Origin: Guptibacillus hwajinpoensis | GTDB lineage: Bacteria; Bacillota; Bacilli; Bacillales; Guptibacillaceae | Assembly: GCF_020171785.1 (NCBI RefSeq) | Contig: NZ_JAIVAE010000002.1 | Coordinates: 1-64,000 of the forward strand | Direction of reading: 5' to 3' | DNA: 64,000 bases | Shown: positions 724-21,722 of the stretch, piece after piece | Position numbering within the stretch: the stretch's first letter is position 1 | Layout of the letters: every line of letters begins with the position of its first letter | Made by a program: the position numbers and the translations under genes | The notes under the pieces: generated by a model | The model's database searches: none | What the model was told of the DNA's origin: nothing | The model's input: only the letters and a program-made list of their open reading frames with translations

Positions 724-1206
724 ATGTTTCGTCAAATGGAGGATTTTGTTCATGTTTGGGAGCGCGAAACGGCGCAAACTGGGAAACTGTTAAGTTATTT
801 AACAGATGAGTCTCTTTCACAAAAGGTTGCACCAGATCATTTTACACTTGAAAAGTTAGGGGTTCACTTATCACAGGCAATCACGTTTATGATGTCGAGT
901 GCTGGACTTGATCTAACTCCTTTAGAAGAGCGGGAGTCATACAATGCTCATGAAATTAAAGCGGTATATGAGCAAACGGCTGAAGGTTTCGTTCGTGTGC
1001 TACAAGATCAGTGGAATGATGAAAAGTTATCAGAATCAACAACGTTTTTTGGTAGTGAAACAACTTACGGAAGTATTCTGTATTTATTGCTTCAACATCA
1101 AACACACCACCGAGGACAAATGACGGTTTTGATGCGTCAAGCAGGTTTAACCGTTCCTGGAATGGTAGGACCATCTCGAGAAGAGTGGGCTGCTATGAAG
1201 GGGTAA
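724..1206 (+). CDS. DinB family protein
   Basis: The product is 160 residues. The ATG at 724 is chosen because AGGAGG sits 8 bases upstream; an in-frame TTG at 691 lacks a site. DinB proteins are four-helix bundles carrying a metal bound by three histidines. The candidate ligands here are the His in LGVHLSQ and the two in HQTHHRGQ, and the C-terminal HHRGQ is the most diagnostic family motif. Members such as BshB2/YfiT-like proteins are metal-dependent thiol transferases or hydrolases, but the substrate cannot be read here. The gene is monocistronic with its own terminator. Confidence 0.85.
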
Positions 1207-1216
1207 TGAATGCGAA

Positions 1217-1257
1217 ACAGAGGGTTTCTTCACTATAGAAGAAACCCTCTGTTTATT
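1217..1257 (+). terminator. Intrinsic terminator of the DinB gene
   Basis: A 15-bp perfect stem (1217-1231 with 1238-1252, ACAGAGGGTTTCTTC) with a 6-base loop and a T-rich tail. Confidence 0.85.
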
Positions 1258-1327
1258 TGTTAGAAGAAAAAAGACAATAAATCTCTTTTCCTTACATATA
1301 CTGCCTGTGAAAAGAGGTGGAAATGTG

Positions 1328-1927
1328 GTGGATGAAAAGCAATCATGTTCTCTTCCGAACTGTGCACAAACAAACGATCAGGCTCCTTTATTTCGGGCTG
1401 AAGCCTATGATCCGATTGAGAAGAAGATAAAAGAAATCGATCTTGCGGACTATAAAGGAAAATGGGTAATCTTATTTTTCTATACAAGTGATTTTACCTT
1501 TGTGTGACCAACAGAACTAGCAGCGGTCGCTGCTATTTATCCAGAGCTTCAAGCTATGAATACGGTTGTACTCGGTATTAGTACAGATAGTGTGTATGCC
1601 CATAAAGTTTTTACCGAAGTGTCACCAGCCGCCTCTAAAGTGAACTATCCTCTTGTTAGTGATCGGAATCACCGGATTAGCCGCGACTACCGCGTGTTAA
1701 ATGAAGAAGAAGGTGCAACGTATCGAGGAACAGTTATTATTAATCCAGAAGGCATCATCGTTTCAAAAATGATGTATCCTGTCGAGGTGGGAAGAAACGC
1801 TTATGAAATACTTCGTCTTATGCAAGCACTTCAATACAATAAAAAAACGGGAGAAGCAGTGCCCGCAAATTGGATGCCGGGTCAACCAGGAATCGTTCGG
1901 CGGTCAACGTATATTGGAAGGGTGTGA
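1328..1927 (+). CDS. Putative selenocysteine peroxiredoxin (in-frame TGA at the catalytic Cys)
   Basis: The reading frame from the GTG at 1328 (or 1325; AGGTGG lies just upstream) to 1927 is continuous except for one TGA at 1505-1507. The residues around it, TSDFTFV-TGA-PTELAAV, are the peroxiredoxin active-site block, where families have FVCPTE. The TGA therefore stands exactly at the peroxidatic cysteine (residue 60 of 199). Downstream the product is intact: [30 protein letters not shown] and [16 protein letters not shown]. The usual resolving Cys of VCPANW is Val here (AVPANW), but an extra pair C7-x4-C12 lies near the N-terminus. The TGA is followed by C and by a hairpin fitting the bacterial SECIS consensus. 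Alternatives are a point-mutated pseudogene or a sequencing error. No selA, selB, selC or selD lies in the window. A conventional Cys peroxiredoxin is at 21060-21722. Confidence 0.75.
1505..1535 (+). promoter_or_regulatory. SECIS-like hairpin following the in-frame TGA
   Basis: Directly after the TGA (1505-1507), TAGCAGC (1518-1524) pairs perfectly with GCTGCTA (1529-1535) around the tetraloop GGTC (1525-1528). Bacterial SECIS elements have an apical loop about 16-37 bases after the UGA with a G among its first two bases. This loop begins 18 bases after the TGA and reads GGUC, like the GGUC in E. coli fdhF. The helix also encodes Ala-Ala-Val-Ala-Ala, so some self-complementarity could arise by chance. 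Confidence 0.6.
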
Positions 1928-1960
1928 GAGCTTCGGAATCTGTCCGCTGCTCTTTTTTTT
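1927..1960 (+). terminator. Terminator of the peroxiredoxin gene
   Basis: A stem AGAGC/GCTCT with inner CGGA/TCCG, then eight T residues. It starts on the stop codon. An intact terminator is consistent with a gene that is still expressed. Confidence 0.7.
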
Positions 1961-2127
1961 ATAGCAGGCCATCAATTCGATAGCATGTTAGAAGGTAGGG
2001 GAGAAGGGGAAGAATAGTACTGTTGAAGGTTATGGTTTGAAATACGCGAAAATAGTGGAATGTTTTCCAATTGATTAATTACGTTGGAGTTCTAAAAGAA
2101 GTTGTTAGAAGGGAGGGGAGTTTCACA

Positions 2128-2739
2128 ATGAATCCAACGAAACAAGCTAAAATATTTGATACACATGCAAAAATGTACGAAAAAAGAAGACGAAAAACGA
2201 CTATAGATACGAAGTGGAGACACGAGTTATTAGCTAAGGCAGATGGAGATATACTTGAGCTATCTGTAGGAACAGGAACGAATTTTCCGATCTATCAAAA
2301 CATTTCATCGCTCATAGCAGTTGATTTTAGTTTGGAAATGGTTCGGTATGCGAGGGAGGCTGCAAAGGAAACGACATATCCGTGTACGGTGCTCCATAAG
2401 GATGTGGAAAAACTTGAGTTTGAAGAAAATACATTTGATACGGTTGTATCGACGCTGTCTATGTGTTCTTACCCACACCCAGCCTTTGTGCTAGAGCAAA
2501 TGGCGAAATGGTGTAAACCAGGCGGACAAGTTTTATTGTTTGAGCATGGCGTTAGCACAAACCCCTTAGTAGGCAAATTACAGAATAAACTAGATCCCTT
2601 CTTATCGAAAAGGATAGGCTGTCATGTTGACAGAGATATGCTGGGTTATGTTAAGCAATCAAGCTTGCATGTGAATCGGATTGAAAGCCACTTATTTGGT
2701 ATGTTTCATCTTATCTTTGCAACAAAACGCGAGGCATAG
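2128..2739 (+). CDS. Class I SAM-dependent methyltransferase
   Basis: The product is 203 residues. The ATG at 2128 follows GGGAGGGGAG; the upstream TTG at 2071 has no site. Motif I is ILELSVGTGTN, followed by AVDFSLEMV (end of beta 2), HKDVEKLEF, and FDTVVSTLSMCSYP as motif IV. The late segment with GCHVDRDMLGYVKQ and the general shape resemble METTL7/PmtA-like methyltransferases that act on thiols or phospholipids. The substrate is unknown. It stands alone between two noncoding stretches. Confidence 0.8.
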   Translation: MNPTKQAKIFDTHAKMYEKRRRKTTIDTKWRHELLAKADGDILELSVGTGTNFPIYQNISSLIAVDFSLEMVRYAREAAKETTYPCTVLHKDVEKLEFEENTFDTVVSTLSMCSYPHPAFVLEQMAKWCKPGGQVLLFEHGVSTNPLVGKLQNKLDPFLSKRIGCHVDRDMLGYVKQSSLHVNRIESHLFGMFHLIFATKREA

Positions 2740-9000: not shown

Positions 9001-9230
9001 GTATAAGCATAAGCAATACCCATTTCCTGCAACGCACGTTAACAACGGTTGTCTCAAACCGATGCTAGTTTTCCGGGAACTCTACATCCAGTTGCTGATA
9101 ACAAGCCGGCCTTCTGAGCGGGACGTTAAAGGTAGCTGTGCGGGTACCCACCTGCTTTTACGCGGGCTTTGAGACACTTATAGTGACGACGGAGCGGGTT
9201 TGGGTTTAAACTTGCTTATGTGATTACATA
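9001..9230 (+). ncRNA. Candidate structured ncRNA (6S-like architecture)
   Basis: This stretch has no believable gene but pairs over long range. CATAAGCAA (9008-9016) is complementary to TTGCTTATG (9212-9220), and GTCTCAAA (9051-9058) to TTTGAGAC (9168-9175). The two helices nest and leave strands of about 34 bases on each side, like a closing stem, central bubble and terminal stem. Local hairpins such as GGTA/TACC (9131-9148) lie inside. A perfect terminator follows at 9253. The layout suggests 6S RNA, but I did not recognise conserved sequence, so the class is uncertain. The ends are approximate. Confidence 0.45.
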
Positions 9231-21059: not shown

Positions 21060-21722
21060 TTATTGATTTAAATCTTTTTTGCATAAATACCAATCAATGC
21101 ATTCAAGACCTTCTTCTTTTTCCCTCTTTTTCATATCTTCCTGTGTTTTAGGAGGCGAAACAAGGACTTGATCTCCTGGTTCCCAATTGGCGGGTGTCGG
21201 AGCACCGTGCTCATCCGTAGTTTTTAACGCCTTTACTAATCTCATAATTTCATGCATGTTGCGACCGGTCGTAAGAGGATAGTAGATGACAGCTCGGACA
21301 ACTTGTTTATCATCAACTACGAAGACTGCACGACTCGTTTCCGTTTGACTTTCTTCCGGCATGATCATACCGTAGCGTGTTGCCACTTTTCGATCGAGAT
21401 CAGCAATTACCGGAAATTCAATTTCGGTATCAAAGTTCTTCTCAATGTTTCGAACCCATGCTAAATGTGAGGAAACGCTATCGACACTAAGGCCGATTAA
21501 CTCAACATCAAGCTTTCGTAACTCTGGATAAATTTCCTGAAAAGCCACGAATTCTGTCGTGCATACCGGCGTGAAGTCAGCGGGATGCGAAAATAACACA
21601 AACCATTTTCCTTTGTAATCATCGAGTGAAAGTTGACCGTGTGTCGTGTTGGCAGTAAAGTCAGGGGCTGGGGACCCGATTCGTGGTAGCTGATAAGCTG
21701 TTTCTGTTTGTTGTTCTGACAT
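21060..21722 (-). CDS. Peroxiredoxin, Prx6-like with C-terminal cysteines
   Basis: The product is 220 residues and reduces peroxides in the cytosol. The active-site block PADFTPVCTTEF gives peroxidatic C54 with the normal PxxxTxxC motif. GLSVDSVSSHLAW and GRNMHEIMRLVKAL place it in the Prx6 subfamily. Two extra cysteines, C208 and C214 (ECIDWYLCKK), lie at the C-terminus as in archaeal Prx6-type enzymes that form an internal disulfide. It provides a normal counterpart to the TGA-containing peroxiredoxin at 1328-1927. The start ATG 21722 follows GGAGGATG. Confidence 0.9.
   Translation of the reverse strand: MSEQQTETAYQLPRIGSPAPDFTANTTHGQLSLDDYKGKWFVLFSHPADFTPVCTTEFVAFQEIYPELRKLDVELIGLSVDSVSSHLAWVRNIEKNFDTEIEFPVIADLDRKVATRYGMIMPEESQTETSRAVFVVDDKQVVRAVIYYPLTTGRNMHEIMRLVKALKTTDEHGAPTPANWEPGDQVLVSPPKTQEDMKKREKEEGLECIDWYLCKKDLNQ

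Follow-up and report, generated by a model that had tools for sequence, protein, structure and literature searches.

Peroxiredoxins with selenocysteine

PrxU reportedly carries selenocysteine (Sec) at its peroxidatic site. The enzyme of Eubacterium acidaminophilum (Sohling et al. 2001) is cited as an experimental Sec-peroxiredoxin in excerpts of PMC13188914 and PMC8533274, and Prx (TxxU) is listed as a selenoprotein family in excerpts of three papers (PMC2398784, PMC9312934, PMC13188914), one example being filed under COG1225 (Bcp) in the excerpt of PMC9312934. Sec-peroxiredoxins are thus already established, so that the basic claim of the present work is not new. A survey of 2006, in the part available, gives three selenoproteins in Bacillales and 12 Sec-peroxiredoxins; it describes Sec as favoured by low oxygen and Sec-to-Cys changes as few, mostly in FdhA and SelD, with none counted for Prx (PMC1794560), and the available part of PMC13188914 says much the same on oxygen and on Sec-to-Cys changes. 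Our literature search, limited to open-licence papers and in part to excerpts of them, found no paper on the Bacilli subfamily described here, no mention of its missing resolving Cys, and nothing on an N-terminal resolving cysteine in a peroxiredoxin. What the present work adds is a subfamily of Bacilli that is Sec almost throughout and has an unusual resolving step.

The DNA analysed (the window) is a stretch of 64,000 nucleotides from Guptibacillus hwajinpoensis. With a probability that we put at about 0.94, one of its genes codes for an AhpC/Prx1-class peroxiredoxin with selenocysteine, whose UGA would be decoded by way of a SECIS hairpin and whose Sec60 would be resolved in a non-classical manner. 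A first-pass annotation of the same DNA had called the gene a candidate selenoprotein; the Sec machinery of the genome, the TGA of the orthologs, and a conserved, covarying hairpin now make this very probable.

The gene and its in-frame UGA

The peroxiredoxin frame occupies window positions 1325 or 1328 to 1927 on the forward strand and on translation is open except for a single internal TGA at 1505-1507. Either of two GTG codons (1325 or 1328) may serve as the start, and the coding sequence ends with the TGA at 1925-1927; counted from the second GTG (1328-1927) it comprises 199 residues, the internal TGA being codon 60. A putative ribosome-binding site (AGAGGTGG; 1313-1320, forward strand) lies 5' of both starts; its best match to AGGAGG is 5 of 6 bases, and the same is seen at the corresponding GTG of close relatives. 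No sigma-70-like promoter was found within window positions 1190-2150. Alignment with homologs places the TGA, which is followed by a C, at the peroxidatic Cys of Cys-type peroxiredoxins (TFVU-PTE, with U for the putative Sec). The first-pass annotation, which saw a peroxiredoxin frame broken only by a TGA at the peroxidatic Cys, is borne out by both translation and alignment. Matched to Pfam, the read-through product scores 123 bits on AhpC-TSA (cut-off 26), and it also matches Redoxin and 1-cysPrx_C. The TxxU motif is present, while the Pro of the PxxxTxxC/U signature is Thr53; in relatives this position is held by Ser, Gly, Ala or Pro.

For 17 chosen pairs of orthologs, selection was compared on the two sides of the TGA. 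Over the 139 downstream codons dN/dS ranges from 0 to 0.16, against 0 to 0.57 upstream of the TGA. The protein encoded 3' of the TGA is under purifying selection, which implies that this part is translated.

Two further features of the window were recorded: a 120-base unit in two exact head-to-tail copies at the very start of the contig (1-240), which may be a dispersed repeat that caused the assembly to break there, and a 6S RNA gene at 9021-9204 (72.8 bits, cut-off 46.4).

A SECIS element past the UGA

The bacterial SECIS hairpin (1518-1535, forward strand) has a stem of seven pairs, formed by 1518-1524 with 1529-1535, and the loop GGUC (GGTC in the DNA, 1525-1528), which stands 17 nt past the UGA. 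The stem has an energy of -9.8 kcal/mol and the 42-nt window folds at -10.6 kcal/mol. Taken alone and given its composition, this hairpin is only modestly unusual (z -1.93 against shuffles; 6 of 200 were equally good). The strong support for it is comparative and does not come from the single sequence. The tetranucleotide TGAC is invariant in all 47 close Sec orthologs. The five alanine and valine codons of the hairpin have a mean synonymous entropy of 0.64 bits. The mean is 1.78 bits in 40 conserved codons elsewhere in the gene (p 3e-4), of which a few, from 0.61, are equally low. Of 47 rows, 43 have a stem of at least 6 bp, as against 14.9% of synonymous redraws of the five codons.

The stem also covaries. 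Among 42 distinct rows, 97.6% of the cells are paired compared to a shuffle mean of 94.7%, and the covariation score amounts to 0.226 against 0.159; in neither case did any of 500 shuffles reach the observed value. The number of stem pairs with a double change, two, is a weaker statistic, matched by 41 of 500 shuffles. Sliding the stem by -3 as a control gave more double-change cells (16 against 10 at the stem), but its covariation score of 0.125 is below the 0.226 of the stem. Pair changes follow clades, and these as well as the SECIS counts below are to be read per sequence and not per independent event: at stem pair 18/27 the 42 rows divide into AU 30, GC 9 and GU 3, and once class-level and distant sequences are taken in (18 rows), UA turns up one time each at 18/27 and at 16/29. 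For these 18 rows the covariation score is 0.309 against 0.150 (0/500 shuffles). The bacterial SECIS model, in the excerpt available, mostly expects pairing at the position of loop pair 21/24 (PMC13188914). Of the 42 rows, 34 have GC here and 8 have AU, but the pair, with a score of 0.632, is suggestive only, because the +3 slide scores as high (0.661).

We applied the published bSECIS rules in an implementation of our own that requires an uninterrupted stem. As given in the excerpt of PMC13188914, the rules ask for a loop of 3-9 nt, an upper stem of 4-16 bp, an energy of at most -7.5 kcal/mol, a G within the first two loop positions, and a distance of 16-37 nt from the UGA. The window hairpin falls within all of them (loop 4, stem 7, first loop base G, 17 nt, -9.8), in agreement with the first-pass annotation, which had noted the C after the TGA and a hairpin of seven pairs closed by GGTC and had proposed a test by bacterial SECIS criteria. 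So do 43 of 47 Sec orthologs as against none of 71 Cys peroxiredoxins. The other four Sec orthologs fall short on energy only (best -6.9 against -7.5 kcal/mol), with 42-nt windows whose folds have -8.1 to -10.2 kcal/mol. L028, L061 and L074, the most distant of the Sec rows, miss the energy line too. The stem of L074 has 7 bp and the same location, with bases that are partly different.

Genes for selenocysteine synthesis and insertion

The source genome (35 contigs, 4.24 Mb) contains the complete Sec machinery for which the first-pass annotation had suggested a search. The tRNA-Sec gene is found at C2:565387-565479 (60.2 bits, cut-off 47; ARAGORN anticodon tca), and selB (C2:565989-567842), selD (C2:570417-571343) and selA (C2:571762-573123), each above its cut-off, are grouped in one cluster. 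The SelD gene has a TGA within its own GGUGCK motif, and the U-containing form of this motif also occurs in 13 of the 14 relatives' selA loci that were scanned. The sel cluster (L134 5975-13145, that is G000:C2:565974-573144) furthermore holds, between selB and selD, three genes for an ABC transporter of the phosphonate/selenate type. On a putative selenate-binding model with a cut-off of 250, the binding protein of this transporter reaches 185.7 bits, and the transporter is a possible candidate for a selenium uptake system. The notion that the Sec trait serves formate dehydrogenase was rejected for this genome: none of its four formate-dehydrogenase-like matches, one of them above cut-off, contains a TGA.

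With this machinery, a ribosome reaching the UGA at 1505-1507 would encounter the hairpin at 1518-1535 bound by SelB and Sec-tRNA-Sec, and Sec60 would be inserted as in other bacterial selenoproteins. Could the UGA, even so, act mainly as a selenium-sensing switch, which would yield a 59-residue fragment when selenium is lacking and leave the work to Cys paralogs? The genome does have such paralogs, two clearly similar and a third weak, and UGA decoding is tied to selenium supply (excerpt of PMC4513850); this dependence is general to selenoproteins, however, no feature specific to switching was seen, and a switch is compatible with the main explanation. We consider it quite improbable as the chief role of the codon and retain the Sec-peroxiredoxin as the reading of the gene.

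Taxonomic distribution

In a search of named genomes, TGA was found at the peroxidatic codon in nine of the best 80 of 551 confirmed loci: they come from Pseudalkalibacillus, Mesobacillus and other Bacillus-like species, one Clostridium, one Deferribacterales MAG, and one Tissierellia MAG. For the remaining 71 of these best 80 loci, the best match has Cys (TGT or TGC) at the homologous residue. Decoding of the UGA as some other residue (Trp, or by near-cognate suppression) without the Sec machinery would have to accommodate Cys in all 71 of these non-TGA loci, as well as a TGA that still terminates the same gene, the full Sec machinery of the genome, and a hairpin within the SECIS rules; we found nothing in its favour and give it almost no credence compared to decoding as Sec.

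Within the family, an ortholog was found in 15 of 15 genomes (with a changed frame in the G007 copy), and selA likewise in 15 of 15. The loci of G006 and G014, both from the genus group of the window, are contained exactly in L022 (Pseudalkalibacillus hwajinpoensis) and L023 (P. spartinae), which makes a Pseudalkalibacillus the likely source of the window. The order was sampled by 397 genomes at a threshold of E <= 1e-40. The 89 genomes that matched consist of 52 with an intact close ortholog containing one TGA, G190 with a close ortholog without TGA, G007, and 35 with distant matches only. The codon itself was checked in 47 of the 52, the single TGA of the other five (G097, G126, G202, G249 and G290) being the search tool's stop count only; among the 35 distant-only genomes it was checked in G283 alone. 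G283 had been considered as a distant Sec-peroxiredoxin with one TGA and was rejected: its site codon is TGT, so its TGA sits elsewhere, and it is grouped with the 35 distant matches. At the level of the class (398 genomes, E <= 1e-48) 14 genomes matched, with one TGA each; four of them are shared with the genomes sampled for the order, and of the ten that are not, eight were checked at the codon. The view of the first-pass annotation that Sec-peroxiredoxins are unusual in the Bacillus-like group does not hold up against 52 of 397 order genomes and 14 of 398 class genomes; they are not very rare.

The same counts weigh on a simpler explanation, a nonsense mutation or a misread TGC or TGT, with the gene being dead or truly encoding Cys. 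Damage does occur among these peroxiredoxin genes, as the frame-changed G007 copy illustrates. But one TGA is present in the 52 intact orthologs of the order, 47 of them verified at the codon, and in 14 of 14 class-level matches (four within the order sample), the downstream dN/dS of 0 to 0.16 in the 17 pairs indicates constraint, the stem covaries, and the recurrence of the TGA in the assemblies of other species already contradicts the idea, including the misread codon that had been named as a possible refutation. We regard an error or a pseudogene as practically negligible beside a decoded Sec codon. The G007 copy, when three frames were read, still has the Sec UGA and the hairpin, its frame change lying farther downstream; the copy was therefore not treated as simply degraded but set apart, and it carries little weight. 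As its genome keeps selA and SelB, the Sec trait does not depend on the peroxiredoxin gene alone.

The TGA form goes together with selA, which is present in all 52 TGA genomes compared to 181 of 397 overall (Fisher p 1.8e-20, uncorrected for relatedness) and in 18 of the 35 genomes that hold distant matches only. The ortholog of G190 (L165, G190:C4:147645-148229) has TGT at the site and no hairpin within the bSECIS rules, and its genome has no selA at threshold and no SelB above cut-off. Its congener G038 likewise has no selA at threshold and no SelB above cut-off, and G280 and G376, of the same family as G190, have TGA, selA and SelB. A quick tree built from 90 rows puts G190 within the Sec clade (support 90 to 91, not starred), which makes a Sec-to-Cys swap in G190 likely, though not firm. 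The ortholog alignment advised by the first-pass annotation thus gave a TGA and hairpin kept in close orthologs, and a lone TGT ortholog lacking the hairpin. The Deferribacterales and Tissierellia Sec rows (L061 4878-5600 and L074 20-628) are placed among Cys peroxiredoxins in the same tree, which suggests a separate origin of Sec in these two. We also observed a distant peroxiredoxin-like match of 30% identity with one internal TGA (G001:C2:15530-15907), where the TGA may mark a further selenoprotein or be the end stop.

A predicted Sec peroxidase has been kept in many Bacilli, with one probable Cys swap in a genome without selA. The Sec orthologs and the Cys ortholog of G190 make a natural Sec/Cys pair, which asks what selenium buys a peroxidase.

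Proposed catalysis by Sec60

The fold was predicted from an alignment of 33 rows with Cys substituted for Sec. The predicted model (mean pLDDT 87.8) has the Prx fold, its closest structures being human Prx3, tryparedoxin peroxidases, and bacterial AhpC, and in it Sec60 occupies the place of the peroxidatic Cys. Residues 1-10 at the N-terminus are of low confidence, which fits a mobile tail and proves nothing.

In peroxiredoxin chemistry the peroxidatic residue attacks the hydroperoxide. Here Sec60 would do so and be converted to a selenenic acid. The C-terminal resolving Cys is missing: where typical 2-Cys peroxiredoxins have VCPANW, the window protein has AVPANW, with Val178 (codon 1859-1861, forward strand) in place of the Cys. 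None of the 51 rows of the subfamily has a Cys within the last 60 residues, and a rough count over 71 Cys-type relatives gives 42 with a Cys in the last 30 aligned letters. The absence of the classical resolving Cys, as the first-pass annotation described it, therefore extends to the whole subfamily, and the selenenic acid must be resolved in another way; this puts the focus on how Sec60 is reduced. The annotation had further supposed that the enzyme works differently from its paralog. The missing Cys would fit such a difference throughout the subfamily. The FVCPTE-type paralog with which the comparison was made does exist, at C2:294875-295393 outside the window, but the paralog inside the window (21159-21638, reverse strand), a second peroxiredoxin with Cys, is of the HPADFTPVCTTEF type.

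Two cysteines of the N-terminal tail come into consideration. Among 47 orthologs, 43 have retained Cys12 (codon 1361-1363, forward strand), the candidate resolving residue, and 30 have Cys7 (codon 1346-1348, forward strand); no further column has Cys in at least eight rows. Because Cys12 is conserved and a C-terminal Cys is lacking, we propose that in proteins with Cys12 this residue, sometimes together with Cys7, would resolve the selenenic acid by forming a selenenylsulfide, or else that a thiol from outside, for instance thioredoxin or bacillithiol, would do so directly. Two orthologs, L171 and L173, contain Sec but not a single Cys, so that the outside-thiol route is forced in them. In L024 and L111 (Bacillus sp. 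RAR_GA_16 and G012) the N-terminus is unlike that of the relatives and resembles another frame, the remainder being intact; this is either an error or a genuine loss of the N-terminal Cys.

An alternative that concerns the resolving step alone, a mechanism by Sec only with the N-terminal Cys serving for metal, for a dimer link or for nothing, has in our estimate about an even chance. It is in keeping with L171 and L173, with the four of 47 orthologs that miss Cys12, and with the low confidence of model residues 1-10; against it, Cys12 (43/47), with Cys7 (30/47), is the sole other Cys kept in most orthologs, and the Cys-type ortholog of G190 retains both. Returning to resolution by Cys12, a broader and tentative scenario, on balance somewhat less likely than not, would have an old Bacilli subfamily to which Sec is native in presumably oxygen-exposed hosts. 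The resolving thiol, originally on the C-terminal arm, would now be found on the N-terminal tail (Cys12, often with Cys7), catalysis would pass through an N-terminal selenenylsulfide, and a lineage that loses the Sec trait would be forced either to revert from Sec to Cys, G190 being the example, or to give up the gene.

Comparison with described peroxiredoxins

The window gene deserves annotation as a single selenoprotein gene and not as two fragments. Table 11 does split it, into ORFs at 1307-1507 and 1556-1927, as the first-pass annotation expected of automatic annotation. This expectation fails for the ortholog WP_225003809.1 on a Cytobacillus spongiae replicon, which RefSeq annotates at full length across the TGA and names a peroxiredoxin, the gene table leaving selenium unmentioned. 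The two proteins are 67% identical and have in common the TGA, the GGTC hairpin, and the N-terminal FCAQ. PrxU, represented by NF040737, is like the window protein an AhpC/TSA peroxiredoxin and its best NCBIfam match; the score of 163 bits is below the cut-off of 270, so the window protein is not an NF040737 member by that model. With the Prx (TxxU) family it shares pfam00578 and TxxU (TFVU). By description, it differs from the proteins of the Prx (TxxU) surveys in being AhpC/Prx1-like, in having a conserved N-terminal Cys and no C-terminal resolving Cys, and in lacking the Pro of PxxxTxxU. Finally, the typical 2-Cys peroxiredoxins and AhpC have the fold and the surroundings of the active site in common with the window protein, from which they differ in that the latter would have Sec in place of the peroxidatic Cys and has no C-terminal resolving Cys.
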